Origin: Bacteroidales bacterium
GTDB lineage: Bacteria > Bacteroidota > Bacteroidia > Bacteroidales > P3
Assembly: GCA_017480785.1 (NCBI GenBank)
Contig: JAFURZ010000009.1
Coordinates: 1-64,000, forward strand
DNA: 64,000 bases
Reading direction: 5' to 3'
Part shown: positions 21,723 through 34,026 of the stretch, in pieces
How positions within the stretch are numbered: the stretch's first letter is position 1
Layout: each line of letters begins with the position of its first letter
Program-made: the position numbers and the translations under genes
Notes under the pieces: generated by a model
What the model saw: only the letters and a program-made list of their open reading frames with translations
The model's database searches: none
Told to the model about the DNA's origin: nothing

Positions 21723-21756
21723 AAAATGTGAACTTTTTACCGCAGTTTGTTTTTGG
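21723..21756 (+). promoter_or_regulatory. Shared operator-like element, copy 1 (yqhD-like gene)
   Basis: AAAATGTG, five variable bases, then TTTACCGCAGTTTGT and a T-rich run ending GG. It sits at a fixed distance upstream of the -7 box (21777). Near-identical copies with the same spacing occur at 24900 and 32473. Probably the binding site of an AraC-type regulator such as the one encoded at 24086. Confidence 0.75.
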
Positions 21757-21776
21757 TCTGTTTTGGAAAAAGTTCG

Positions 21777-21784
21777 TATTTTTG
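21777..21784 (+). promoter_or_regulatory. -7 box of the yqhD-like operon
   Basis: TATTTTTG followed by CAAAA, 42 bases upstream of the ATG. The 63 bases from AAAATGTG to TTTGC have exactly the same length as at the two sister promoters. Confidence 0.75.
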
Positions 21785-21825
21785 CAAAATATTTTATGGA
21801 TAAAAGCTAAAACCCTATACACACT

Positions 21826-22989
21826 ATGCAGAATTTCAACTATATGACCCCGACGCGCCTCATCTTTGGCAAAGGCGTTGTGGAGAAGCTGCCCGAAGTG
21901 ATGGAGCAGTTCGGGAGGAAAGTCCTCCTCACCTATGGTGGCGGCAGCATCAAGAACATCGGCCTCTACCAGAAGGTTCTAGACCTGCTGAAGGGCTACG
22001 AAATCATCGAGCTCAGCGGCATCCAGCCCAACCCGAAGTACGACCCCAGCGTGCTCGACGGCGTGCGCCTGTGCAAGGAGCACAAGGTGGACGTTATCCT
22101 TGCTGTGGGCGGCGGTAGTGTCCTCGACTGCTCGAAGGCCATCGCCGCAGGCGCCTGCTACGACGGCGACCCATGGGACCTCATCAGCTACAAGGTCAAG
22201 GCCCAGGCCGCCCTGCCTATCGTCGACATCATCACCTTGGCGGCCACGGGAAGCGAGTACGACGCCGGCGGCGTCATCTCGCGCACCGAGACCAACGATA
22301 AGATAGGCTACGTCGCCCCGCTGCTCTATCCGCACACCTCGTTCCTCGACCCCACCTACACCTTCTCCGTCAGCCGCAAGCAAACCGCCGCAGGCATCGC
22401 CGACGCCATGAACCACACCATCGAGCAGTACTTTACCGAGGACACCACGCTGCTCAACGACGGCTTCTGCGAGAGCATGCTGCGCTCGCTGATGGTCAAC
22501 GGCCGCCGCTGTCTGGAGAACCCTGAGGACTACACCGCCCGCGCCGAGATGATGCTCTGCTGCACATATGGCTGCAACCGCATCCTCTCCCTCGGCAACA
22601 GCCCCAGCGGATGGCCCTGCCACGGCATCGAGCACGCCCTCAGCGCCTACTACGACATCACCCACGGCGAGGGCCTGGCCATCATCACGCCGCGCTGGAT
22701 GCGCCACATCCTGAACGACCACACCCTGCCGCGCTTCGTCAAGTACGGCGTCAACGTCTTCGGCATCGACGCCACGCTGCCCGAGCGCGAGATTGCGGAA
22801 CGGGCCATCGACGAGACCTACCGTTTCTTCGAGAGCATCGGCATCCCCATGCACCTGCGCGAAGTGGGCATCGACGACAGCAGGATAGGGGAGATGGCTC
22901 ACCACATCGCCGTCAACGAAGGCCTTGACCAGGCCTACGCCCCGCTGAGTGAGCAGGATATTGCTGAAATAATAACCAATAGTCTATAA
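21826..22989 (+). CDS. Iron-containing alcohol dehydrogenase, YqhD/BdhA type
   Basis: 387 aa NAD(P)-dependent group III dehydrogenase reducing aldehydes to alcohols. The N-terminal Rossmann part has GGGSIKNIG and DVILAVGGGSVLDCSKAIA. The metal-binding helical part has GIADAMNHTIEQYF and SGWPCHGIEHALSAYYDITHGEGLA, containing the His ligands. Closest pattern is YqhD/butanol dehydrogenase, enzymes that remove short-chain and reactive aldehydes. Its promoter carries the shared operator-like element; a DUF362 lipoprotein follows after 4 bp, so they are co-transcribed. Confidence 0.92.
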   Translation: MQNFNYMTPTRLIFGKGVVEKLPEVMEQFGRKVLLTYGGGSIKNIGLYQKVLDLLKGYEIIELSGIQPNPKYDPSVLDGVRLCKEHKVDVILAVGGGSVLDCSKAIAAGACYDGDPWDLISYKVKAQAALPIVDIITLAATGSEYDAGGVISRTETNDKIGYVAPLLYPHTSFLDPTYTFSVSRKQTAAGIADAMNHTIEQYFTEDTTLLNDGFCESMLRSLMVNGRRCLENPEDYTARAEMMLCCTYGCNRILSLGNSPSGWPCHGIEHALSAYYDITHGEGLAIITPRWMRHILNDHTLPRFVKYGVNVFGIDATLPEREIAERAIDETYRFFESIGIPMHLREVGIDDSRIGEMAHHIAVNEGLDQAYAPLSEQDIAEIITNSL

Positions 22990-22993
22990 ACCA

Positions 22994-24013
22994 ATGAAGA
23001 AAGCATTAGTATTATTCGCAGCTGCCGCCATAATGATGGTGGGCTGCAAGAGTAACAACCAGCCTGCCGAGGCTCAACCTGACGAAGATGAGGCCGTCGT
23101 GTATCTGACCCGCGACATCAGCCCCGAGGCGCTGGTGAAAATCTACGACGCCCTGGGCGTGCAGGCCGAGGGCAACGTGGCCGTGAAGATAAGCACCGGC
23201 GAAGGCAGTAACCCCAACTATTTGAAGCCTGAACTCATTCGCCTGCTGGTGGAGAAGGTGAACGGCACCATTGTGGAGTGCAACACTGCCTACGGCAATG
23301 GCCCTGCCGACAAGCAGGACGAGCGCACCACCTCGGCCAACCACTGGAAAGTCATCGAGCGCCACGGATTCACGCCCCTGTTCAAAGTCGACATCATGGA
23401 CGAGGAGGGCGAGATGCGCATCCCCGTGCGCGACACCACGCACATCAAGTACGACATCGTGGGCAGCCACATGGCTAACTACGACTTCATGATTGCCCTC
23501 AACCACTTCAAAGGTCACCCCATGGGCGGCTACGGTGGAGCGCTGAAGAACCTCAGCATTGGCTGCGGCAGCCCTAACGGCAAGGCCTACATCCACTCGG
23601 CCGGCAAGATGGAAGTGCTCGACATGGCCCGCCTCTGGACGCCCGAATTCATCGGCGATCAAGACGGCTTCCTGGAGAGCATGGCTGCTGCTGCGCAGGG
23701 CGTGACCGACTACTTCCGCGCCAAAAAGGGTATCATCTACATCAGCGTGATGAACAATATGAGCATCGACTGCGACTGCGTCGACCACCCCGAGCCCGTG
23801 AAGCTTGAGGACTACGGCATCCTGGCCTCCACCGACCCCGTGGCCCTCGACCAGGCCTGCATCGACATCATCAACCAGCAGCAGGTCACGGCTACCAACG
23901 ACCCCACCGATCTCCTCAGCCGCATCGACAAGCAGCACGGCGTGCACACCATCGAGCACGGCGAAGCCATCGGCCTCGGCACCCGCAAGTATCACATCGT
24001 CAGCATCGACTAA
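22994..24013 (+). CDS. DUF362 family lipoprotein
   Basis: 339 aa. The signal peptide ends in lipobox MVGC (Cys18), so the protein is probably lipid-anchored. Residues 40-330 match the DUF362 pattern: VAVKISTGEGSNPNYLKPELI, TIVECNTAYG, the conserved LNHFKGHPMGGYGGALKNLSIGC centre, and DYGILASTDPVALDQACIDI near the end. DUF362 proteins are often linked to iron-sulphur or redox genes, but this one lacks a ferredoxin domain; two Cys (CDCVD) could bind a metal. It lies 4 bp after the YqhD-like gene, suggesting an electron-transfer or stress role. Confidence 0.85.
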   Translation: MKKALVLFAAAAIMMVGCKSNNQPAEAQPDEDEAVVYLTRDISPEALVKIYDALGVQAEGNVAVKISTGEGSNPNYLKPELIRLLVEKVNGTIVECNTAYGNGPADKQDERTTSANHWKVIERHGFTPLFKVDIMDEEGEMRIPVRDTTHIKYDIVGSHMANYDFMIALNHFKGHPMGGYGGALKNLSIGCGSPNGKAYIHSAGKMEVLDMARLWTPEFIGDQDGFLESMAAAAQGVTDYFRAKKGIIYISVMNNMSIDCDCVDHPEPVKLEDYGILASTDPVALDQACIDIINQQQVTATNDPTDLLSRIDKQHGVHTIEHGEAIGLGTRKYHIVSID

Positions 24014-24041
24014 TTGTAGAGAGACCGAAATACAATAATTC

Positions 24042-24080
24042 GGGTGCGTCTGCGTTATATATATGTAACCAGACGCACCC
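24042..24080. promoter_or_regulatory. 11-bp-arm hairpin upstream of the AraC gene
   Basis: GGGTGCGTCTG (24042-24052) and CAGACGCACCC (24070-24080) are perfect inverted arms; the 17-nt loop is itself partly dyad-symmetric (GTTA...TAAC). It ends 5 bases before the AraC ATG. It could be a terminator of the yqhD-DUF362 operon, an attenuator in the araC leader, or an autoregulatory operator. Confidence 0.55.
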
Positions 24081-24085
24081 TTGCT

Positions 24086-24898
24086 ATGAATGAACTGCAC
24101 GAAGATATACTGATTGCCGACAATCTGGGCAGCACGGCCCTCCGCCAAACCCAGGGCTATATCACCCATGCGTTGTGCCGGCAGGGTGGATGCTCGTTCT
24201 TCATGGGTCCGGTCTGCCACCACTTCGCCGCCGGCGACTGCCTCATCATCCCCCAGCAGAGTCTGCAGATGAATCGTCTGGAAGCCAGTGATGATTTCGT
24301 CGTGGAAGTCATCTATGTGAAGTCGACATTCATCCAGAACTCTACGCCACAGAGCAACTACGGCATGCGCGGCCATCTGGCCCTCTTTGAGAACCCTGTC
24401 ATGCACCTCAACGAAGAGCAGCAGCAGGTTTGCGCCCTCAATTTCGATTACATTCGTCGCCGCCTCGCGCTGCCACACCACCATTTCCACCTCGATGCCA
24501 TGCTCAACGCCGTGCAATGCATGATTATCGACTTTTTCGACTTCCACGTCGAGCTCTACGGCGACCGACCTGTCTCATCGCAACAGGCGGTGCTCATGGA
24601 GCGCTTCCTGTCGTTGCTCGATGGGGGCGAGTACCGCCGCTACCGCGATGTGGGCCACTACGCCGCCATGCTCTGTGTCACGCCCAAGTACCTCTCCGAG
24701 GTGTGCCATAAGGTCAGTGGCCAGTCGGCCCTCTATTGGATTACGCGCTACACGGCCCTTGATATCAGTCGCCAACTGCGCCGCCGTGACCTCACCCTCG
24801 ACGAGGTCTCCGACCTCTACGGGTTCTCTTCCCTCAGCTATTTCGCCCGCTACGTGCAGAAGCATTTGGGTGCCCACCCCAGCGAGCTACGCGGCTGA
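24086..24898 (+). CDS. AraC-family transcriptional regulator
   Basis: 270 aa. The ATG at 24086 follows the hairpin; an upstream GTG lies inside the hairpin arm and is rejected. Residues about 1-160 are a cupin-like effector domain with a conserved cysteine-containing loop; residues about 175-268 carry the double helix-turn-helix (YAAMLCVTPKYLSEVCHK, then LTLDEVSDLYGFSSLSYFARYVQKHLG). It sits between the yqhD-like operon and the CMD-cupin operon, both of which, with the flavodoxin-AKR operon at 32.5 kb, carry the same promoter element. It is therefore the best candidate regulator of that set, parallel to YqhC in E. coli. Confidence 0.9.
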   Translation: MNELHEDILIADNLGSTALRQTQGYITHALCRQGGCSFFMGPVCHHFAAGDCLIIPQQSLQMNRLEASDDFVVEVIYVKSTFIQNSTPQSNYGMRGHLALFENPVMHLNEEQQQVCALNFDYIRRRLALPHHHFHLDAMLNAVQCMIIDFFDFHVELYGDRPVSSQQAVLMERFLSLLDGGEYRRYRDVGHYAAMLCVTPKYLSEVCHKVSGQSALYWITRYTALDISRQLRRRDLTLDEVSDLYGFSSLSYFARYVQKHLGAHPSELRG

Positions 24899-24899
24899 A

Positions 24900-24933
24900 A
24901 AAATGTGACATTTTTACCGCAGTCTGTGTTTTG
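24900..24933 (+). promoter_or_regulatory. Shared operator-like element, copy 2 (CMD-cupin gene)
   Basis: AAAATGTG, five variable bases, TTTACCGCAGTCTGT, then GTTTTG. It overlaps the end of the AraC coding region by nothing and begins two bases after its stop. Spacing to the -7 box equals copies 1 and 3. Confidence 0.75.
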
Positions 24934-24953
24934 GCCGTTCGGGGAAATTTTCG

Positions 24954-24961
24954 TATCTTTG
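24954..24961 (+). promoter_or_regulatory. -7 box of the CMD-cupin operon
   Basis: TATCTTTG then CAAAAATTT, 22 bases upstream of the ATG at 24983. It forces the start at 24983 rather than the longer in-frame option. Confidence 0.78.
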
Positions 24962-24982
24962 CAAAAATTTTACGACAGAGTT

Positions 24983-26086
24983 ATGAAGCACATCTATCGC
25001 ATCGCGCTTGTGGCGCTGACAATGGCAATGACAGCCTGCAGTAGCAAGATTACAACAACTGACAACGACATGAATACACTGAGTTTCAACAATGAGCAGG
25101 CAGCAGCAATGACGCTGATAGCCTGCTACGAGGCGCAGGGAGACCTGTCGTCGCTGTCCGAGGCTATAGACAAGGCATTAGAGTCCGGACTGACCGTCAA
25201 TCAGGTGAAGGAAGCCCTCTCGCAACTCTACGCCTACACGGGTTTCCCGCGCTCCCTCAACGCGCTGGGTACGCTGCAGAAGATAATCGAGCAGCGCAAA
25301 GCCGACGGCAAGAACGTCGAGGAAGGCCCCGAGGCCTCGCCGATGCCCGCAGGCTATGACGCCCTGAAACAAGGCACCGAGGTGCAGACCCGTCTCGTCG
25401 GCCAGCCCTTCGACTATGCCTTTTGCCCCGCCGAGGACTACTACCTCAAGGCGCACCTCTTCGGCGACATCTTCGCCCGCGACGTGCTGACCCACGCCGA
25501 CCGCGAGTTTATCACCGTCAGCGCGTTGAGCGGACTGGAAGGCGTGATGCCACAGCTCATCTCGCATGTACGCGGCGCCCGCAACATGGGCGTCACCGAG
25601 GAACAACTGCAGGGCATCGCTGCCACCCTTCGCAGCCGTGGACTCGAGGCCGCAGCCCTGCGCTGCGAGGCCGCCATTGCTGGCGACGGCAAGCCCATCC
25701 CGCCGTCGGCCTGGCCCCTCGGCGAGCCTAACGACGCCTTCGCGCAGTACTTCACAGGGCAGAGCTACCTGGCCGTACTGGACCCCGCGAGTGGCCTCTG
25801 CAATGTCACCTTCGAGCCCTGCTGCCGCAACAACTGGCACATCCATCACGCCGCCGTGCAGCACCTGGTCTGCGTCAGCGGCCGCGGCTGGTATCAGGAG
25901 TGGGGCAAGGAGCCCGTGGAGCTCAAGCCCGGCACCGTGGTCACCGTTCCCGCAGGCACCAAGCACTGGCACGGCGCCGCCCGCGACACCTGGATGCAGC
26001 ACTTGGCCTACTACACCGACCAGAAAGCCACCTATCGCACCGAGTGGCTGGAGCCTGTTACTGACGAACAATACAAAAAATTATGA
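24983..26086 (+). CDS. Lipoprotein with carboxymuconolactone decarboxylase-like and cupin domains
   Basis: 367 aa. The signal peptide ends TACSS, a lipobox with Cys19. Two CMD/AhpD-like helical domains follow (about 35-100, LESGLTVNQVKEALSQLYAYTGFPRSLNAL; about 150-225, HADREFITVSALSGLEGVMP). Neither shows the CxxC redox pair of AhpD. A cupin domain fills about 275-350 with metal ligands in NWHIHHAAVQHLV and GTKHWHG. The combination suggests an envelope enzyme acting on a small quinone-like or peroxide compound, but the reaction is unknown. Its promoter carries the shared operator-like element; the stop overlaps the next start (ATGA). Confidence 0.85.
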   Translation: MKHIYRIALVALTMAMTACSSKITTTDNDMNTLSFNNEQAAAMTLIACYEAQGDLSSLSEAIDKALESGLTVNQVKEALSQLYAYTGFPRSLNALGTLQKIIEQRKADGKNVEEGPEASPMPAGYDALKQGTEVQTRLVGQPFDYAFCPAEDYYLKAHLFGDIFARDVLTHADREFITVSALSGLEGVMPQLISHVRGARNMGVTEEQLQGIAATLRSRGLEAAALRCEAAIAGDGKPIPPSAWPLGEPNDAFAQYFTGQSYLAVLDPASGLCNVTFEPCCRNNWHIHHAAVQHLVCVSGRGWYQEWGKEPVELKPGTVVTVPAGTKHWHGAARDTWMQHLAYYTDQKATYRTEWLEPVTDEQYKKL

Positions 26087-26703
26087 ACGTACTACTTATC
26101 AATGGCAGCCCCCATGGCAAGGACGGCTGCACACAGACGGCCCTCGAGGTGGTGGCCGAGACACTGAACACCGAAGGCATCGACACGCAGATTGTGCACG
26201 TGGGCCACAAGGACATCCACGGATGCATAGCCTGCTTCAAGTGCGCCGAGTTGGGGCGCTGCGTGTTCGATGACGAGGTGAACCGCGTGGCGCCGCTCTT
26301 CGAGAAGGCCGACGGCCTGGTCATCGGCTCGCCGGTCTACTATGCCGGCATGGCGGGCACCATGACGTCGTTCCTCGACCGCCTGTTCTTCTCCACCCAC
26401 TTCGACAAGCGCATGAAGGTAGGCGCCGCCGTGGTCTCGGCGCGTCGCGCGGGTACCACCGCCACCTTCGATGCTATGAACAAGTACTTCACCATCAGCG
26501 AGATGCCCATCGCCAGCAGCCGCTACTGGAACATGGTGCACGGCTACTCGCGCCAAGACGTGATGCAAGATGCAGAAGGTGTACAGTGTATGCGCATTCT
26601 TGGCCGCAATATGGCTTTCCTTATCCGCGCCATCGCCGCAGAGCGCGAGCGCACAGGACTGCCCGCCGCCGAGGAGGTCACCTACACCAATTTTATCCAC
26701 TGA
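26083..26703 (+). CDS. Flavodoxin-family NAD(P)H-dependent FMN oxidoreductase
   Basis: 206 aa. The N-terminal FMN phosphate loop is NGSPHGKDGCTQTAL (6-20). The CIACFKC motif (about 48-54) is typical of the iron-sulphur-flavoprotein/NADPH-dependent FMN reductase group. GLVIGSPVYYAGMAGTMTSFLDRLFF is the flavin-ring segment. The ATGA overlap with the CMD-cupin lipoprotein indicates coupled translation, so it may supply electrons to, or act on the same electrophile as, that protein. Confidence 0.88.
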   Translation: MNVLLINGSPHGKDGCTQTALEVVAETLNTEGIDTQIVHVGHKDIHGCIACFKCAELGRCVFDDEVNRVAPLFEKADGLVIGSPVYYAGMAGTMTSFLDRLFFSTHFDKRMKVGAAVVSARRAGTTATFDAMNKYFTISEMPIASSRYWNMVHGYSRQDVMQDAEGVQCMRILGRNMAFLIRAIAAERERTGLPAAEEVTYTNFIH

Positions 26704-26891
26704 CAGTGGTTACGGCCGCCGTCTTCGGCGGCGGCCGCCACACCTGGCGCCTCCAGCTCACTTTCAAGCTCCGCAAACAAGACGGCTCCTGGCAGTTCAC
26801 CGAGTCCCGCGCGTCGACTTATTGAAGGTCTATCATAAGTCTTTCTCCACGGCATAATGAAAAAATATTTTGCCGGATGGATTATTATTCG
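26704..26891 (+). other. Intergenic stretch with GC-rich hairpin and possible coding remnant
   Basis: A GC-rich hairpin (GGCCGCCG, TCTT, CGGCGGCGGCC) lies at about 26713-26735 and could terminate the flavodoxin operon. Downstream bases to 26825 can be read as a short protein-like piece (WRLQLTFKLRKQDGSWQF) without start, possibly a gene remnant. Confidence 0.35.
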
Positions 26892-26899
26892 TAATTTTG
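26855..26899 (+). promoter_or_regulatory. Promoter of the AAA ATPase gene, within a repeated segment
   Basis: TTTTG (26868-26872), 19 bases, TAATTTTG (26892-26899). About 40 bp around it (from AATGAAAAAATATTTTGCCG to CGTAAT) recur almost unchanged at 28135-28172, directly after the ATPase gene. Confidence 0.75.
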
Positions 26900-26988
26900 C
26901 AGCGTGAATTTATGGAGTAGAACTCCGTATTTTTCGTGTAAATCAGGAGTTATATTCTGAATAATAATAAAAGAACAGACTGTTTAAA

Positions 26989-28140
26989 ATGATAAAAAGG
27001 TGGCCTAAAATAACTGATGCACAAGAAGAAAGTGTGTTCCTTTTCGGTGCACGTCAGACAGGGAAGACGACCTTATTGTTGAATTTGTTCCCTAACAGCA
27101 GATTCTACGACCTGCTGGAGAGCGACACCTACGAGCGTTTGAGGCGTAATCCTGCACTCCTCCGGCAAGAACTTGCCACCGCAAGAGAGGGGGAAATTAT
27201 CATCATCGATGAGATACAGCTAATCCCCGAATTGCTGAACGAGGTGCATTGGCTCATTGCACGACAGGATGTCCATTTTATCCTCAGTGGTTCGAGTGCC
27301 AGAAAATTGAAACGCAAAGGGGTGAACACGCTGGGAGGACGGGCTGTGCGCAATGTGCTTTATCCTCTTGTCTCTGCCGAAGTGCCAGAGTTCGATCTGA
27401 TAAAGGCCGTGAACCGAGGCATGCTACCCACTCACTATCTGGCCACCAGCGAGCGACAGCTGCAGAAACGCATGCAGGCATACGTGTCGGTCTATCTGAA
27501 AGAGGAGATTGCCGCCGAAGCCTTGGTGCGCAAGCTGTCGTCGTTCAACCGTTTCATGGAGGTGGCGGCGTTGACCGACGGCGAGATGGTGAACTACACC
27601 AACATCGCGCAAGATTGTGGAGTCGATGCAAAGACAGTCAAAGAGTACTTCTCCATATTGGAAGAGACCCTGATTGGCTATATGGTGCCGGCGTTCCGAC
27701 GCACGGTGAAACGACGCCTCAACCAGTCGCCGAGGTTCTATTATTTCGATGTATCGCTTCCCAACTACCTGCTGCACCGACAAGACATGCAGCCTGGCAG
27801 CGACGACTTCGGCCATGCCTTCGAACATCTGATGGTGCAGGAAATCATCGCCTATCTCGGCTACCACGACATCGAGAATGCACTGTCCTATTGGCACACG
27901 CATACAGGGTATGAGGTGGATGCCGTGCTGGGTGATGCCGAGGTGGCCATAGAGTTCAAGTCCACCACCGAGGTGCAATCGCGGCATCTGCGTGGGCTCA
28001 AAGCCTTCCACGAAGAGCATCCCGACGCACGCCTAATCATTGTCTCGCTCGATGTGGCACCGCGTATATTCAACGACGTTGAGGTAATGCCCGCCACCCA
28101 TTTCCTACATGAACTGTGGGCTGGCAGAATCTATAAATGA
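26989..28140 (+). CDS. ATP-binding protein, AAA_14 with DUF4143
   Basis: 383 aa. Walker A is GARQTGKTT (20-28) and Walker B IIIIDEIQLI (about 68-77), followed by a sensor-like HFILSGSSARKLKR. The C-terminal part (about 190-370) is the DUF4143 region with a nuclease-like E/K pattern (TGYEVDAVLG, then VAIEFKSTTE). Such proteins are common accessory genes of unknown role in Bacteroidota. Direct copies of its promoter segment on both sides suggest it arrived or was duplicated as a unit. Confidence 0.88.
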   Translation: MIKRWPKITDAQEESVFLFGARQTGKTTLLLNLFPNSRFYDLLESDTYERLRRNPALLRQELATAREGEIIIIDEIQLIPELLNEVHWLIARQDVHFILSGSSARKLKRKGVNTLGGRAVRNVLYPLVSAEVPEFDLIKAVNRGMLPTHYLATSERQLQKRMQAYVSVYLKEEIAAEALVRKLSSFNRFMEVAALTDGEMVNYTNIAQDCGVDAKTVKEYFSILEETLIGYMVPAFRRTVKRRLNQSPRFYYFDVSLPNYLLHRQDMQPGSDDFGHAFEHLMVQEIIAYLGYHDIENALSYWHTHTGYEVDAVLGDAEVAIEFKSTTEVQSRHLRGLKAFHEEHPDARLIIVSLDVAPRIFNDVEVMPATHFLHELWAGRIYK

Positions 28141-28172
28141 AAATATTTTTTGCCGGATGGATTATTGGCGTA
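28135..28172. repeat. Degenerate second copy of the ATPase promoter segment
   Basis: ATGAAAATATTTTTTGCCGG followed by ATGGATTATT and CGTAAT repeats the 26855-26894 segment with few changes. The -7 box is decayed (TAATACAA), so it is probably not an active promoter. Confidence 0.7.
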
Positions 28173-28174
28173 AT

Positions 28175-28214
28175 ACAAAAGCATCCCCTGCAAACATGCA
28201 GAAGATGCTTTTGT
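28175..28214. terminator. Bidirectional terminator
   Basis: ACAAAAGCATC (28175-28185) and GATGCTTTTGT (28204-28214) are perfect inverted arms, with an inner CTGC/GCAG stem. It lies between the convergent ATPase gene and the minus-strand 28235-30351 operon. Confidence 0.75.
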
Positions 28215-28234
28215 AGCATAATGGAAGTCTCCAA

Positions 28235-28525
28235 TCAGAGTACTTCCATCAAGCCGATGATGGCAGCAGGCAGGAAGAAGAACTGCACGGCGTAGCCGAG
28301 GGCGGTCAGTATGCGGCTACCTGCCAGTTCTGCTTGGCTCTTCACCCAAAACCAGCGTGGTGGCACGGTGTCGCCCCAACCTACAATGCCGATAATCAAC
28401 CCTATCACTGCCGAGATGACACCCAAAATGAGTGTTACTGGTTCGGGATCCTCAATCAGATATAGCAGACCGAATATAATCGCTACTGGCGAAATCCACT
28501 GCCATAGCCATAGAAATACTGCCAT
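28235..28525 (-). CDS. Small membrane protein, unknown
   Basis: 96 aa with membrane helices at about 8-24, 30-50 and 76-94; the middle carries GWGDTVPPRWFWVKSQAELAG. No family recognised. It is the last of three minus-strand genes with 12-bp and 8-bp gaps, so it is probably expressed with the BspA-like protein. Confidence 0.65.
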   Translation of the reverse strand: MAVFLWLWQWISPVAIIFGLLYLIEDPEPVTLILGVISAVIGLIIGIVGWGDTVPPRWFWVKSQAELAGSRILTALGYAVQFFFLPAAIIGLMEVL

Positions 28526-28537
28526 GCTTTATGATTT

Positions 28538-29695
28538 TTATTCGAGTACGCCAATTCCAATTAAAATGCCAAGTACGGTCATCAACACTATCATGAAAAC
28601 GAAGAAGAGTGAGATTACAACTGCGGAGGTGTATCTACCATCGAAATATTCTTTGGCTGTTTCTCTCCGTCCGCTATCATAAATTTGGGATTCTGGTTTT
28701 TTCGTTTTGAAAACCAAGTTCCGAATCCAATTGCTGTGTTTCTTTTTGTTTCCCTGTGCATCAATATATTGTATTCTACAATACTTACGTGTCACCTTAT
28801 CAACAGTCACATCTTTTTTGCCGTTGTGAATTATAACGCTTGGCAATTCCTTTACTAAATCCCAACGTTCTCCCAAAGACCATTCAAGTTGTGGAATGGT
28901 TTTGACGCTCGATGGAATCTCAAGAGGTTCTGTGAAGTGATATAAGTCTACGAAGTTTGGGCCGAGATATTCAATTCCATCAGGCAGTTTCATACTCTTT
29001 ATAGAACAATGATAGAATGCAGACTCGCCTATTGACTCCAGTGTGGATGGGAAAACTATTTTTGAGAAATCCCCACTGAAGGCATTGTCTCCAATTTTTC
29101 GCAGACCCTCTGGGAGTTTCAATGTCCCCATCTCAAGATGGCAATTATAAAAGGTTGCGTTGCCAATGGTTTTTAATTCACTAGGGCGCTCGTCCGAGAA
29201 TACAATCTCTTTTAGACTGCATTTATCGGGTAACGTTGCATATAGATAATGCGAGACGCCACCACAAATCACCTCCTCAATTTCTCTTATTGAAGGTGGT
29301 ATTATACATTCGGTTACCTTTGAACCCCAAAAAGCACCCACGGTGATAATACCTTCCGACGTGGTCGGTTTTCGCCGTTTGTCATTGTGGTAATCCACAA
29401 ACGTGTACTTACATCTAGTAAAAGACCCTAATCTTGTTACAGGGTATTCTTTTCCACCTATCTGAATAGACATTGGAATGATGAGTCTACCAGCTGCATC
29501 CCACGTGTTTAACAGCGTTATCTCCCCGCTTCCTTCCAATTTATACAAGCATCCGTTGTATGTAAACATGGACCCTTTGGATACACTCACGATATTTTCT
29601 GTACCAACATCTGGAATGTTTTCAAAAAGCCCATAATCGTAGTAATGTACGTCATAACTGTTCGTACTTGAATTTTTTATGTCAATTCTGTCCAT
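28538..29695 (-). CDS. BspA-type leucine-rich repeat protein with C-terminal membrane anchor
   Basis: 385 aa. Residues about 90-285 contain LRR_5 (BspA) repeats, for example LKTIGNATFYNCHLEMGTLKLPEGL and KIGDNAFSGDFSKIVFPSTL. A basic region follows and one transmembrane helix lies near the end (about 358-382, AVVISLFFVFMIVLMTVLG). There is no N-terminal signal peptide, so orientation is uncertain; most likely a C-terminally anchored cytosolic or surface repeat protein. It is lower in GC than the flanking core genes, consistent with an accessory region. Confidence 0.78.
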   Translation of the reverse strand: MDRIDIKNSSTNSYDVHYYDYGLFENIPDVGTENIVSVSKGSMFTYNGCLYKLEGSGEITLLNTWDAAGRLIIPMSIQIGGKEYPVTRLGSFTRCKYTFVDYHNDKRRKPTTSEGIITVGAFWGSKVTECIIPPSIREIEEVICGGVSHYLYATLPDKCSLKEIVFSDERPSELKTIGNATFYNCHLEMGTLKLPEGLRKIGDNAFSGDFSKIVFPSTLESIGESAFYHCSIKSMKLPDGIEYLGPNFVDLYHFTEPLEIPSSVKTIPQLEWSLGERWDLVKELPSVIIHNGKKDVTVDKVTRKYCRIQYIDAQGNKKKHSNWIRNLVFKTKKPESQIYDSGRRETAKEYFDGRYTSAVVISLFFVFMIVLMTVLGILIGIGVLE

Positions 29696-29703
29696 TTTGA
29701 AAA

Positions 29704-30351
29704 TTATTTATAGGTTATTGGGAAATATTCTTTGCCTGCCAACCAAAGCATAATGTCGACCTGACGGAAAGTGAGGTTGGTGATGCCGTAGGCCTCGCGC
29801 ATTCGGCAGACGATATCGCGGAACTTGCGGTAGTCCTTCAAGTCGTTGTTGAGGAACTTCAGCTTTCGGTCTCGGTTGCGCAACTCGCGTAACATCTTGT
29901 CCACGTATGAGTCGTAGATGGGGAAAGCCTCGGCGTTATGGTGAGCGCAGAACTTGGTGGCGAATGAGTAAAAGTCCCGAGTTCTTTCGCCAGCATCGCT
30001 GGTCGGCACATTACGCAGTTCCTCAACCAGCGATAAATCGCCTTGCGCCATTCTTTGCCCGAGATTCTCGACACCCATATAGTGTTCCACCACACGATAA
30101 ACACTATAGATGCTCGTGCTGTAGAAGTCATTGAGGGTGGAACATTTGATGAGTAGGTCGCTACGGTCGAGGTATTCCTTGTCTTTTCGTGGACGGAATA
30201 GCCTCGCCAATGCCTCTTCAGCACTGCGGTAGCGATTGAGGGTCATCCACTGCTGCCAGTAGTGGTCGGCCTCGGCTGCGCTTGGACGGAAGTTCTTGAA
30301 CTCCGTTGCATGTTTGGTTGCCATTTTGCTTGTCCATTTATAGTTAAACAT
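29704..30351 (-). CDS. Conserved hypothetical protein, helical
   Basis: 215 aa (206 if the ATG at 30324 is used). Soluble and helical, rich in Arg and Tyr. A distinctive stretch at about 130-160 (FYSFATKFCAHHN, then FPIYDSYVDKML) recurs in accessory proteins of Bacteroidota, but I know no proven function. It is the first gene of a three-gene minus-strand operon with the BspA-like protein (8-bp gap). Confidence 0.68.
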   Translation of the reverse strand: MFNYKWTSKMATKHATEFKNFRPSAAEADHYWQQWMTLNRYRSAEEALARLFRPRKDKEYLDRSDLLIKCSTLNDFYSTSIYSVYRVVEHYMGVENLGQRMAQGDLSLVEELRNVPTSDAGERTRDFYSFATKFCAHHNAEAFPIYDSYVDKMLRELRNRDRKLKFLNNDLKDYRKFRDIVCRMREAYGITNLTFRQVDIMLWLAGKEYFPITYK

Positions 30352-30391
30352 TCTACCACGAAGAAAGTGGAGCCATTCATTGTGTCTCTAT

Positions 30392-30557
30392 TTCTTGATG
30401 ATAGGGCTGGACTCCCTGTTACGTAAAAATATTGATTTCTGAATTGCCCCACGTGTGGACATATTCAGATTTGCGAATACTATCCAACAGGAGCATCATA
30501 CTTCATTATTCTTTTTACGTAACTTCTGAGAAGTGTCCAGTTTCTCATCATCAAGAA
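30392..30557. repeat. Imperfect inverted-repeat pair in long intergenic region
   Basis: Left part: TTCTTGATGAT (30392), CTGGAC (30407), GTTACGTAAAAA (30418). Right part is the reverse complement of the same three blocks in reverse order (30512-30523, 30535-30540, 30547-30557), with slightly different spacers. The ~80 bp between carry no recognisable gene. The rest of 30352-30890 shows no credible coding sequence. Confidence 0.65.
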
Positions 30558-30893
30558 TAAGGCGAATATGCGCTTTCTTCCACAAAACGGATTTCTCCCC
30601 GTTTGCGACTGCAAAAGTACAAAGAATATTTCATTCCACAAAAATTATTTTCAATTATGGAGAAAAAATCAGATAAAGGATGGTCTGGAGTAGGCGCTTT
30701 GTCAGTCAATTTCATCGAACTATCGCCGAGAGACCGAAGAAGGACCGAGCTTGGATCATAGTCGGCACATAGGAAGGAGACAGTAGTTGATCAAAGGTTG
30801 AGTAAACGGGGAGCAAAACCTATAGACTATACCTCTATTGTTCCGATTTGAGCAAAAAGCATCATTTGTTTGCTGGTATCGGCAAAAAAGTTG

Positions 30894-30985
30894 TATCTTT
30901 GCACCGTGGTTTTAACGAAAACTTGCCGATAGTTCAGATTGTTTCCATTTTTATTTTGTTGTATTCAAGAAAAGTTGTATTTTTG
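30894..30985 (+). promoter_or_regulatory. Tandem promoters of the AbiE module
   Basis: Two -7 boxes, TATCTTTG (30894-30901) and TATTTTTG (30978-30985). The second has TTTTG 19 bases upstream and lies 23 bases before the antitoxin ATG. Two promoters could allow antitoxin autoregulation at one of them. Confidence 0.7.
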
Positions 30986-31007
30986 CATCGTCTTTTGATT
31001 GGAATAA

Positions 31008-31628
31008 ATGAATTATTTGCAATTCAGAGAGCAGTGGCACAGAATGGGTTGCTTCAATATCTATCAGGTTCGGGCGTGGTGTCCGGACTTTGACAGAAGC
31101 AATATTACCCGTTGGGTGAAGCGTGGCTACCTGGTGAAACTCCGTCAGGATTGGTATGCTTTCAGCGAACTGTTGTCTCAACCTGATGCACCAAAGTATG
31201 TGGCAGGTGCTATGTACAGTCCGTCGTACGTCAGTCTCCATGCAGCACTGGCATACTATGGCATCATACCCGAAGCTGTGTCGAAGATAACCAGCGTCAC
31301 CTCTCGGCGGACCACGTCGTACTGCAATGCCTTTGGGGAATTCAGTTATCAAACCGTCAAGCCTGAGTTGTTTTTTGGCTACAAGCCCGTGTCCTTCCCC
31401 TCCGGAGGCAGTTATTTGATGGCACATCCAGAGAAAGCCATTGTCGACCTGCTCTATCTTTATCCACAGTACAACACAGAGGAGTCTCTGCTCGACCTGC
31501 GCTTTGACGAATACTGGATGCAGGAGGACTTGAATCTTGACCTCCTCATGGAATACACACGTCGCTGCTCCTCGAAAAGCCTCCAGCAACGGATTGATTT
31601 ACTCATAAAAACCTATCGAAATGATTGA
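31008..31628 (+). CDS. AbiEi-type antitoxin (type IV toxin-antitoxin)
   Basis: 206 aa. The N-terminal winged helix (about 1-50, FNIYQVRAWCPDFDRSNITRW, RGYLVKLRQDWYAF) binds DNA in this family; the C-terminal part is the AbiEi antitoxin domain (YSPSYVSLHAALAYYGIIPE to HPEKAIVDLLYLYP). It represses its own operon and counteracts the nucleotidyltransferase toxin encoded next. The stop overlaps the toxin start by 8 bp. The pair is a known phage-defence/abortive infection module. Confidence 0.88.
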   Translation: MNYLQFREQWHRMGCFNIYQVRAWCPDFDRSNITRWVKRGYLVKLRQDWYAFSELLSQPDAPKYVAGAMYSPSYVSLHAALAYYGIIPEAVSKITSVTSRRTTSYCNAFGEFSYQTVKPELFFGYKPVSFPSGGSYLMAHPEKAIVDLLYLYPQYNTEESLLDLRFDEYWMQEDLNLDLLMEYTRRCSSKSLQQRIDLLIKTYRND

Positions 31629-32409
31629 TATAGAGTTTCTGCTTGCATTCTATCCGCAATCTGTTGCGACGAACAAGGCATTCCATAAGCATATACTGAA
31701 GGAATATGTCGAACTGCTGGCATTGGAGCATCTGTCGCGCTCGCCATTGGCGGAAAAGATTGTTTTCATAGGGGGCACCAACCTGAGACTTGTGCATGGG
31801 ATAGACCGTTTCTCCGAGGATTTGGATTTCGACTGCAAAGGGCTCTCGGAAGAGGAGTTTATGGGACTGTCTGATGCCGTTGTGGAGTGCCTTAGAAACA
31901 ACGGTCTGCGTGTGGAACTGCGCGACAAGGAAAATCCTAATCTTACCGCTTTCCGCCGTAACCTGTATTTCCCGGAGTTGCTTTTTGAAATGGGCCTCTC
32001 AGGCCATCGAGAGGAACGTTTTCTGATGAAGATGGAGGCGCAGGATCAAGGAGTGGCCTACATGCCCGAAACGGCCCTGATTAACCGGTGCGGATTCCTG
32101 TTTCCCATGCCAGTGGCTCCGAAAGACGTGCTGCTTTCGATGAAACTGTCGGCACTCCTTGCAAGAGCCAAAGGCCGTGATTTCTACGACACTATCTTCC
32201 TCTGGCAACAGACATCACCCAACTACGACTTCCTTGCCGCCAGATGTGGAATAGGAACGCCCGGCGCGTTGAAGCAGGCATTGAACGAGAAGTTGTCGTC
32301 CATTGACCTGAAGAGGAAACAGAGGGACTTTGAGCACCTGCTTTTCAATACTTCACGCAGTTCCCAGATACTGCATTTTCGAGAGTTTATAGACGACAAA
32401 ATACATTGA
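31621..32409 (+). CDS. AbiEii nucleotidyltransferase toxin
   Basis: 262 aa. Nucleotidyltransferase core: GGTNLRLVHG (51-60) and RFSEDLDFD (63-71), the GG-D-x-D metal site; later LSMKLSALLARAKGRDFYD, the conserved K..A...R..KD(F/Y)YD motif. Family members transfer nucleotides to tRNA or similar targets and stop growth during phage attack. It overlaps the antitoxin gene by 8 bp. Confidence 0.9.
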   Translation: MIDIEFLLAFYPQSVATNKAFHKHILKEYVELLALEHLSRSPLAEKIVFIGGTNLRLVHGIDRFSEDLDFDCKGLSEEEFMGLSDAVVECLRNNGLRVELRDKENPNLTAFRRNLYFPELLFEMGLSGHREERFLMKMEAQDQGVAYMPETALINRCGFLFPMPVAPKDVLLSMKLSALLARAKGRDFYDTIFLWQQTSPNYDFLAARCGIGTPGALKQALNEKLSSIDLKRKQRDFEHLLFNTSRSSQILHFREFIDDKIH

Positions 32410-32472
32410 CGGAACTTTTCCATTAGCTTCTTCTACTTTTTTTGACGAAGACGGGCTTTGGGTTACCACGGC

Positions 32473-32506
32473 AAAATGTGCAACATTTGCCGCAGTTTGT
32501 GTTTGG
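32473..32506 (+). promoter_or_regulatory. Shared operator-like element, copy 3 (flavodoxin-AKR operon)
   Basis: AAAATGTG, five variable bases, TTTGCCGCAGTTTGT, then GTTTGG. It is 63 bases from the first A to the C of the TTTGC at the -7 box, as in the other two copies 7.6 and 10.7 kb away. Confidence 0.75.
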
Positions 32507-32526
32507 GCTGTTTGGATAATTGTTCG

Positions 32527-32534
32527 TACTTTTG
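32527..32534 (+). promoter_or_regulatory. -7 box of the flavodoxin-AKR operon
   Basis: TACTTTTG then CAAAAAA, 23 bases before the ATG at 32557; this rules out the longer in-frame start at 32458. Confidence 0.75.
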
Positions 32535-32556
32535 CAAAAAATTTCAAGCAAAAAAA

Positions 32557-33171
32557 ATGAAAATCAAATTCATCCTCACCGCAGTCCTTGCACTCCTTAT
32601 GGCTGCCGGCTGCAACTGCCAGACCAACAATCAAACGACAGTAAAACAATCAAACAAACCTATTATGAACAAGATAGTCATTTTCTTCTCCCATGCGGGA
32701 GACAACTACAGCGTGGGCAACATCGAGGTGGGCAACACCAAGATTGTGGCCGACTACATCACCGAACTGACGGGCGCCAACCAGTACGAAATCGTCACCC
32801 ACAAGTACGACGGCATGGCCTACACGCCGCTCATCAAGCTGGCGCAGGACGAGGCCAACCGCGGCGAGCTGCCACCCTATGAAGGCAAGGCCCCCGACCT
32901 CTCGCAGTACGACACCGTCTTCATCGGCGGACCGGTATGGTGGGGCACCTACCCGCAGGTGATGTTCACCCTGTTCAAGGACATCAACCTCGACGGCAAG
33001 ACCGTCATCCCCTTCACCACCCACGAAGGCAGCGGCCTGGCCTCCTGCGTCAGCGACGTGAAGCAGGCCTTCCCCAAGGCCAAGGTCACCGCGGGCTTCG
33101 CCATCGCCGGCCACGAGGTGCGCACCGGCAAGGCCAAGGTTGAGAAATGGATTAACAGCGTAGTAAAATAA
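32557..33171 (+). CDS. Flavodoxin-domain lipoprotein
   Basis: 204 aa. Signal peptide with lipobox AAGC followed by a short Gln/Asn/Thr-rich linker, then a flavodoxin-like domain: IVIFFSHAGDNYSVG is the FMN phosphate loop and DTVFIGGPVWWGTYPQVMFTLF the ring-binding segment. Unusual in being lipid-anchored: a flavodoxin outside the cytoplasm suggests envelope redox chemistry, as with the CMD-cupin and DUF362 lipoproteins of the same presumed regulon. An aldo/keto reductase gene follows 3 bp downstream. Confidence 0.85.
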   Translation: MKIKFILTAVLALLMAAGCNCQTNNQTTVKQSNKPIMNKIVIFFSHAGDNYSVGNIEVGNTKIVADYITELTGANQYEIVTHKYDGMAYTPLIKLAQDEANRGELPPYEGKAPDLSQYDTVFIGGPVWWGTYPQVMFTLFKDINLDGKTVIPFTTHEGSGLASCVSDVKQAFPKAKVTAGFAIAGHEVRTGKAKVEKWINSVVK

Positions 33172-33174
33172 AGT

Positions 33175-34026
33175 ATGATTATGGAATACACGAAACTTTC
33201 CAACGGCGTCGGGATGCCCTTGCTGGGCTACGGCGTCTTCCAGGTGCCACCGGCCGAATGCGAGCGCTGCGTCAGCGACGCCCTCGGCGTCGGCTACCGC
33301 ATGATTGACACCGCCCAGGCCTACGCCAACGAAGAAGGGGTAGGGGAGGCGTGGAAGAAGAGCGGCCTGAAGCGCGACGAGCTCTTCCTCGTCACCAAGG
33401 TATGGATAAGCAACAACGGCGAAGAGCGCGCCGCCCGCAGCATCGACGAGAGCCTGCGCAAACTCCAGACCGACTACATCGACCTGCTGCTCATCCACCA
33501 GGCCTACGGCGACGTCTTCGGCACCTGGCGCGCCATGGAGCAAGCCTACCGCGACGGCAAGGTGCGCGCCATCGGCGTCAGCAACTTCCAAGAGGCCCGC
33601 TTCTTCGACTTCGCCCACTATGTCGACATCAAGCCCATGGTCAACCAGTTGCAGTGCAACGCCCTCATCCAGCAACGCGGCATCGAGGGTGTGTTGAAAG
33701 AATTCGACTGCCGCCTGATGGCTTGGGGGCCGCTGGGCGGACAGGGCGTGGATGGTATCATCAAAAGCGACCTACTCGGCGAAATCGGGCAAAAATACGG
33801 CAAGACCGCCTCGCAGGTGGCCCTCCGCTGGCTCACCCAGCGCGGCGTCATCGCCATCCCCAAGAGCAGCCACCGCGACCGCATGGCGCAGAACCTGAAT
33901 ACGATGGACTTCACGTTAAGTGACGCCGAGATGGACCAGATTGCCACCATGAACCAGCACGACACCGGCACCATCAACTTTGCCGACATGAACTTCGTCA
34001 AGTACCTCATCGAGACCTACGGCTAG
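33175..34026 (+). CDS. Aldo/keto reductase (DkgA-like)
   Basis: 283 aa (281 if the ATG at 33181 is used). NADPH-dependent aldehyde/ketone reductase of the (beta/alpha)8 class. Tetrad visible: Asp and Tyr in MIDTAQAYANE, Lys in VTKVWI, His in LLIHQAY. GVSNFQ, and IPKSSHRDRMAQN, the NADPH-binding segment, are also present. In E. coli the homologous pair yqhD-dkgA is controlled by the AraC protein YqhC; here it has the same promoter element as the yqhD-like gene 11 kb upstream. It ends at a large palindromic repeat. Confidence 0.92.
   Translation: MIMEYTKLSNGVGMPLLGYGVFQVPPAECERCVSDALGVGYRMIDTAQAYANEEGVGEAWKKSGLKRDELFLVTKVWISNNGEERAARSIDESLRKLQTDYIDLLLIHQAYGDVFGTWRAMEQAYRDGKVRAIGVSNFQEARFFDFAHYVDIKPMVNQLQCNALIQQRGIEGVLKEFDCRLMAWGPLGGQGVDGIIKSDLLGEIGQKYGKTASQVALRWLTQRGVIAIPKSSHRDRMAQNLNTMDFTLSDAEMDQIATMNQHDTGTINFADMNFVKYLIETYG

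Follow-up and report, generated by a model that had tools for sequence, protein, structure and literature searches.

The window analysed here is a stretch of 64,000 nucleotides from a Bacteroidales bacterium (assembly GCA_017480785.1, contig JAFURZ010000009.1). It contains three gene units for carbonyl and redox enzymes, each preceded by a copy of the same promoter block, with all genes and blocks on the forward strand. The first unit begins with a YqhD-type iron-containing alcohol/aldehyde dehydrogenase (387 amino acids, 21826..22989), followed by a DUF362 putative lipoprotein (339 amino acids, 22994..24013). An AraC-family regulator lies directly behind (270 amino acids, 24086..24898, with a C-terminal HTH_18 domain). 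The second unit encodes a putative lipoprotein with CMD and cupin domains (367 amino acids, 24983..26086) and an NADPH-dependent FMN reductase/flavodoxin-like protein (206 amino acids, 26083..26703). The third unit consists of a Flavodoxin_4 putative lipoprotein (204 amino acids, 32557..33171) and an aldo/keto reductase (283 amino acids, 33175..34026). Pfam assignments (Fe-ADH and DUF362; CMD plus cupin and FMN_red; Flavodoxin_4 and Aldo_ket_red) agree with the gene classes proposed in a sequence-only reading of this DNA. Judged by eye, lipoprotein signals seem to be present at the N-termini of the DUF362, CMD-cupin and flavodoxin proteins. The three blocks probably serve as operators in a small, local regulon linked to the gene of its AraC-family activator; binding, activation and signal are inferred.

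The sequence-only reading placed the blocks at 21723, 24900 and 32473, with 63 bases from the first A to the C of the TTTGC in the -7 box. All three are present at exactly these positions, and the distance is exact in each. The pattern AAAATGTG-N5-TTTRCCGCAGTYTGT matches exactly at the three starts, and the window holds no further match at up to three mismatches. None of 100 shuffled controls contained the 28-base pattern at this tolerance. Site 1 precedes the YqhD-type gene and covers, as a 67-bp block of operator and core promoter, 21723..21789. Its putative operator (columns 1–29, 21723..21751) is composed of a distal half-site AATGTG, a CCGCA box and a proximal half-site TTTGTT; its -7 box is TATTTTTG (21777..21784). 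Site 2 (24900..24966) starts one base past the araC stop codon and precedes the CMD-cupin gene, with the operator columns at 24900..24928 and the -7 box TATCTTTG at 24954..24961. Site 3 (32473..32539) lies before the flavodoxin gene, with the operator columns at 32473..32501 and the -7 box TACTTTTG at 32527..32534. Bacteroides promoters are described as having TAnnTTTG at -7 and TTTG near -33 (PMC7366714).

Invariant positions are unevenly distributed over the three blocks. They comprise all eight positions of columns 1–8, none of the five in columns 9–13, which are the five variable bases described before, 13 of 15 in columns 14–28, 11 of 22 in columns 29–50 and 15 of 17 in columns 51–67. A generic comparison set was formed from the 19 other TANNTTTGC places in the window, on both strands, coding or not. 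It was compared with a regulon set of 48 distinct sites from the window and its relatives. The -7 region (columns 51–64) holds 20.8 bits in the generic and 20.4 bits in the regulon set, and columns 34–50 hold 7.9 and 7.8 bits. Columns 23–33 are partly shared (3.7 versus 8.1 bits). Columns 1–22 hold 2.9 bits in the generic set versus 21.0 bits in the regulon set (1.7 versus 12.2 for columns 1–12; 1.2 versus 8.8 for columns 13–22); the regulon values are inflated by selection, as these sites were picked by a profile covering the same columns, and the generic values are unaffected. No generic place matches more than 10 of the 23 specified operator positions. Promoters in this genome often carry a run of T that ends in TTTTG(CC), followed by a GG/A-rich stretch ahead of the -7 box; background matches that also show this pattern were chosen by the profile itself. 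Since columns 1–22 are rich only in the regulon set, the upstream identity is not a promoter consensus, and the operator would correspond to about the first 30 bases. The earlier claim that the upstream identity exceeds a promoter consensus is borne out for columns 1–22; it fails for about columns 34–67, which are common to ordinary promoters. The block thus appears to be a composite in which an operator of some 30 bp adjoins an ordinary core promoter, and its special portion would be roughly the first 30 bases, not 63.

The genome of the bacterium (2.25 Mb on 19 contigs, 92% complete) was searched with a sequence-only profile of the 48 sites and with a profile of the three window sites alone. 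The first gave 51.7, 51.4 and 48.0 bits for sites 2, 3 and 1, and the next match reached 25.2 bits over columns 17–65 only. The second gave 74 bits for each window site and 24 for the next match. All three are training sites of both profiles, and it is the gap that counts as evidence rather than the scores. Core-promoter columns dominate the window-only profile, with which 108 of 119 genomes pass E 0.001; it was used only for this gap and for the top relatives. The motif search that had been called for ended with three full-length matches, all in the window; neither profile revealed a fourth, which could lie in the missing sequence. The 15-base element alone was rejected as a specific marker: at three mismatches it gave 75 + 68 matches in the genome, near the 46 + 69 of a reversed control. 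At up to one mismatch, it matched once besides the three sites (C16:239932); the surroundings there are G+C-rich, and no -7 box stands at the offset of the block.

With the AraC protein encoded at 24086 as query, 50 loci were retrieved from assemblies of Bacteroidales or Bacteroidetes, several of them titled as metagenome-assembled genomes of the rumen or other fore-stomachs. The best segments of the AraC proteins are 45–73% identical, and relatives of the same enzymes lie nearby in many loci. A 67-column profile was built from the three window sites and one relative and run for three rounds with a site cut-off score of 33. In the first round, sites in other loci already scored far above column-shuffled profiles. 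The window and the 50 loci contain 52 sites above 33 (48 distinct; 49 outside the window), and 35 of the 50 AraC loci have at least one. The best of 20 column-shuffled profiles reached 12.3 and the reversed profile 11.3. Eleven weaker matches (16–33) were left out of the count; four of these precede a flavodoxin or FMN reductase relative.

The spacing was examined with a profile of columns 1–29 from the window sites and locus L001, which is blind to the spacing and was applied to the remaining 49 loci. At threshold 4, 40 matches had TANNTTTG at offset 54, versus at most 5 at any other offset and 65 elsewhere in total. At threshold 10, 22 matches had this offset, versus 7. An iterated low-threshold profile of the left half drifted to A/T-rich sequence and was discarded; the spacing peak was retested without iteration. 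A constant spacing characterises the site family. Instead of being lost, the block is kept at the same spacing in the promoters of relatives with AraC proteins of 45–73% identity.

Target genes were assigned by blastp to the window proteins (E ≤ 1e-5) or by Pfam, and for L003:10859 from the tblastn position. The first gene after the site is of a redox type for 38 of the 52 sites: an aldo/keto reductase (18), a flavodoxin (10), a CMD protein (4), a ferredoxin-type protein (4) or a YqhD relative (2). The question whether sites of relatives lie upstream of oxidoreductases is thus answered positively for the majority. In other genomes of the same genus, the strongest sites precede relatives of YqhD, flavodoxin, DUF362, CMD, FMN reductase and aldo/keto reductase; one strong site precedes a short-chain dehydrogenase, and a few have no assignable gene.

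Within the putative operator, columns 3–12 were compared with columns 15 to 27 positions further on in 28 non-redundant sites. Identity peaked at a lag of 21, with 4.79 of 10 positions, followed by 3.93 at lag 19; generic promoters gave 2.81. None of 5000 within-site shuffles reached the value at lag 21. For all 48 sites, the fraction was 0.447 at this lag, and no other lag from 8 to 26 exceeded 0.335. The clearest direct repeat is that of L003:14623, ATTGTGAAAG/AATGTGAAAG. The common core in the window sites is TGTG at columns 5–8 and 26–29 (TGTT in site 1), and the near core abuts the -33 TTTG (columns 30–33 or 31–34). The operator thus seems to contain a pair of half-sites arranged as a direct repeat and not a single site. 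The sequence-only reading had proposed a small regulon with one activator site at a fixed helical face; the small regulon and the fixed spacing are supported, and two probable half-sites replace the one.

The adjacent AraC protein is the best candidate for the regulator, judging from gene adjacency and co-occurrence. A site lies within 160 bp of araC in 25 of the 50 loci, just downstream on the same strand in 23 and divergent in 2. Among 119 genomes of the same genus, a site (E ≤ 1e-6) was found in 53, an AraC match (E ≤ 1e-20) in 53 and both in 40. Two of the site matches are partial, that of G097 from column 17 and that of G112 from column 10. Sites occur in 40 of the 53 genomes with an AraC match versus 13 of the 66 without (Fisher p 1e-9, overstated because the profile was trained on AraC-fetched loci and the relatives are not independent). 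With AraC proteins of at least 53% identity, 21 of 23 genomes have a site; G023 and G035 are the misses, and G035 has a recognisable site just below the threshold. Each of the 53 genomes with a site has one to four, and the bacterium itself has three; an occurrence at this spacing before many unrelated genes was not found.

The AraC protein matches HTH_18 (E 1.2e-15), and its profile matches the DNA-binding domain of E. coli AraC (2k9s, E 1.5e-5). No Pfam domain was matched in the N-terminal part. An AlphaFold2 model (mean predicted local distance difference test score 81.5, predicted template modelling score 0.60) has strands between residues 25 and 79 in a beta-rich N-terminal part, a helical middle and the helix-turn-helix domain. 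The cysteines C31, C116 and C145 are invariant in 28 aligned AraC sequences (window and 27 relatives), so thiol sensing of electrophiles through these residues is possible.

The proposed mechanism starts with the binding of AraC (24086–24898) to two direct-repeat half-sites with the core TGTG. Their distance of 21 bp would place both on the same face of the helix, with the conserved CCGNA box between them. The near half-site would abut or overlap the -33 element of a TTTG…TAnnTTTG promoter. The N-terminal domain may sense the signal, which the targets suggest to be a reactive carbonyl, a quinone or a related electrophile. Signal-bound AraC would recruit RNA polymerase and switch on three units: the yqhD-like and DUF362 genes, the CMD-cupin and FMN reductase genes, and the flavodoxin and aldo/keto reductase genes. 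The first unit may include araC, because there is no -7 box between the DUF362 gene and araC.

Several observations weigh against this regulon. Fifteen of the 50 AraC loci lack a site above 33. Truncation by contig ends is not the reason, as 48 of the 50 loci extend at least 230 nucleotides past araC. Fourteen of the 52 first downstream genes are not obviously redox genes: four hexapeptide transferases, three SnoaL/DUF4440 proteins, four esterases or alpha/beta hydrolases, two cut or short genes and one without a Pfam match. The direct repeat is weak in the window sites, with 3, 4 and 5 identities of 10. A second copy borrowed from another site scores 0.434 versus 0.447, so the repeat exists at the level of the consensus with little covariation within a site. 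The co-occurrence test is partly circular and uses related genomes, and it includes the 13 genomes with a site and without an AraC match. Sites are also present in 19 of the 30 genomes with only a distant (26–34% identical) or fragmentary AraC; a paralogue may serve the sites in some of them. These last two counts would also fit an operator that is real and read by another regulator, such as a second AraC-type protein like one of about 32% identity in relatives, with the adjacent AraC as a mere neighbour. Related sites between such a paralogue and a divergent gene point in the same direction (L022:4909; G021 C22:570-633). The adjacent gene is, however, the only AraC match of the own genome at E ≤ 1e-20, the cut-off of that search, which did not extend to looser values. 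Together with the adjacency of site and araC in half of the loci and the 21 of 23 co-occurrences in close relatives, this renders another regulator rather unlikely.

The position of the near half-site at the -33 element, where a bound protein could block the polymerase, would also suit an AraC acting as a repressor or dual regulator. The tandem layout beside the promoter resembles instead that described for activating AraC sites (PMC4760080, PMC6018408). In some relatives (L003:17848), the -33 TTTG is replaced by half-site sequence, as for a promoter in need of help; repression or dual control is considered unlikely. A strong core promoter without any regulator, or a promoter cassette recently copied three times, would account for the match of about columns 34–67 to ordinary promoters of this genome. 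It does not account for the difference of columns 1–22 between the regulon set and the 19 generic places, nor for columns 9–13, which differ among the three blocks when their flanks do not. The element and its spacing also persist in relatives with AraC proteins of 45–73% identity, and this explanation is very improbable. An activating AraC with its three operators is the reading we prefer.

Other observations concern the regulators of relatives. G086 (93% complete) has three window-like sites on C15 and C1, with 62, 40 and 33 bits by the window-only profile; the strongest precedes a short-chain dehydrogenase, and no AraC match was found at E ≤ 1e-20. At L022:4909-4975 and G021 C22:570-633, a related site is flanked on one side by a second AraC-type gene (about 32% identical) and on the other by a divergent gene for a hexapeptide transferase or an aldo/keto reductase. 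The second AraC-type gene perhaps encodes a paralogous regulator with a related operator.

Prevotella-type relatives have an additional feature. Columns 13–22, with the CCG box, are mirrored near columns 39–48, on the other side of the -33 element, by complementary arms such as AATCCCCG…CGGGGATT. A strong inverted repeat (score at least 9) is present in 17 of 48 sites; among generic promoters from these loci, 8 of 98 have one, and a dyad scan gave a modest within-site excess (4.85 versus 4.19). The arms vary between sites and remain complementary, even within one locus (L034:8946, L034:9909). Such repeats span the promoter and flank the -33 region at L034:8946-9012, L034:9909-9975, L033:6888-6954, L016:4245-4311 and L036:5991-6057. 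The three window sites lack a strong inverted repeat, and it was therefore kept out of the main explanation. A similar element (L129, 27.7 bits) occurs in the genome G036, which has no AraC match, and another before the second araC of L034 (L034:2150), so it may not be specific to this regulator. A terminator of the preceding gene is not favoured because the left arm has a fixed distance to the -7 box; the fixed place of the right arm is partly by construction, as the sites were found with an ungapped profile. A generic scan for sigma-70 promoters and terminators was uninformative. It is doubtful that a second, covarying layer supplements the 21-bp tandem AraC site in the promoters of this redox/electrophile regulon of rumen-type Bacteroidales. 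Promoter opening would in that case perhaps rely also on a hairpin of DNA or RNA or on another, inverted AraC contact. At L003:10859-10925 and L008:10859-10925, downstream of araC, an inverted repeat of another kind, CATCCATTT…AAATGGATG, is located between -33 and -7.

Upstream of araC in the window, a perfect 11-bp inverted repeat (GGGTGCGTCTG/CAGACGCACCC, 24042–24080) ends five bases before the start codon. It scores 15.0; the best among 17 relatives checked are 10.5 (L011) and 10.0 (L024). It is possibly an attenuator or terminator that limits araC expression. A -7 box is located 12, 17 and 16 bases before the araC start in L001, L017 and L020, respectively, which suggests a leaderless or nearly leaderless araC transcript in these relatives.

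The second and third units are separated by other genes. Positions 31008–32409, directly before site 3, hold an AbiEii-type gene (PF08843) and an upstream partner of 206 amino acids without a Pfam match; the two may form a type IV toxin-antitoxin pair. A DUF4143 AAA ATPase, a BspA-type leucine-rich repeat protein and a small protein with a weak DUF6308 match are encoded at 26989–30351. These genes may be inserted cargo. They separate the regulated units, relatives of which are closer together in several other loci.

E. coli YqhC activates yqhD and dkgA and binds their promoter region (PMC8262776). In the window as in this system, an AraC-type regulator lies beside a YqhD-type aldehyde reductase, and the targets include a DkgA-type aldo/keto reductase. 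E. coli YqhD is 40% identical to the window protein over 359 aligned positions, and DkgA is 38% identical to the aldo/keto reductase over 258. In contrast, the regulator does not resemble YqhC significantly: the best blastp match has E 0.023 and covers 22 residues of the helix-turn-helix. The window has three separate promoters, not one, they are of the Bacteroidetes type, and the regulon adds the CMD-cupin, FMN reductase, flavodoxin and DUF362 genes. By analogy, it would work like YqhC-yqhD-dkgA; it is not a member of that system because its regulator lacks full-length homology to YqhC.

The araI1-araI2 half-sites of E. coli form a direct repeat with a centre spacing of 21 bp, and the near half-site overlaps the -35 element. 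AraC occupies these two adjacent half-sites near the promoter, and polymerase is recruited when both are filled (PMC4760080, PMC6018408). The putative window operator likewise consists of tandem half-sites adjoining the promoter; it differs in half-site sequence, in targets and in the TAnnTTTG type of promoter. Sugar-use regulons of Bacteroidetes, described by comparative genomics for polysaccharide or rhamnose utilisation (PMC3878776, PMC3870299), were likewise inferred from the conservation of regulators and operators. Unlike these, the window regulon comprises carbonyl and redox enzymes. No paper on this regulon was among the top matches in the open PMC literature. The kind of system, an AraC regulator with a tandem site and local operons, is already familiar. 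The present case provides a candidate regulator, operator and target set for an apparent electrophile or redox control in rumen-type Bacteroidales, with which targets in uncultured genomes would be predictable from sequence. It suggests that the logic of YqhC, YqhD and DkgA was assembled again with an unrelated AraC-type regulator.

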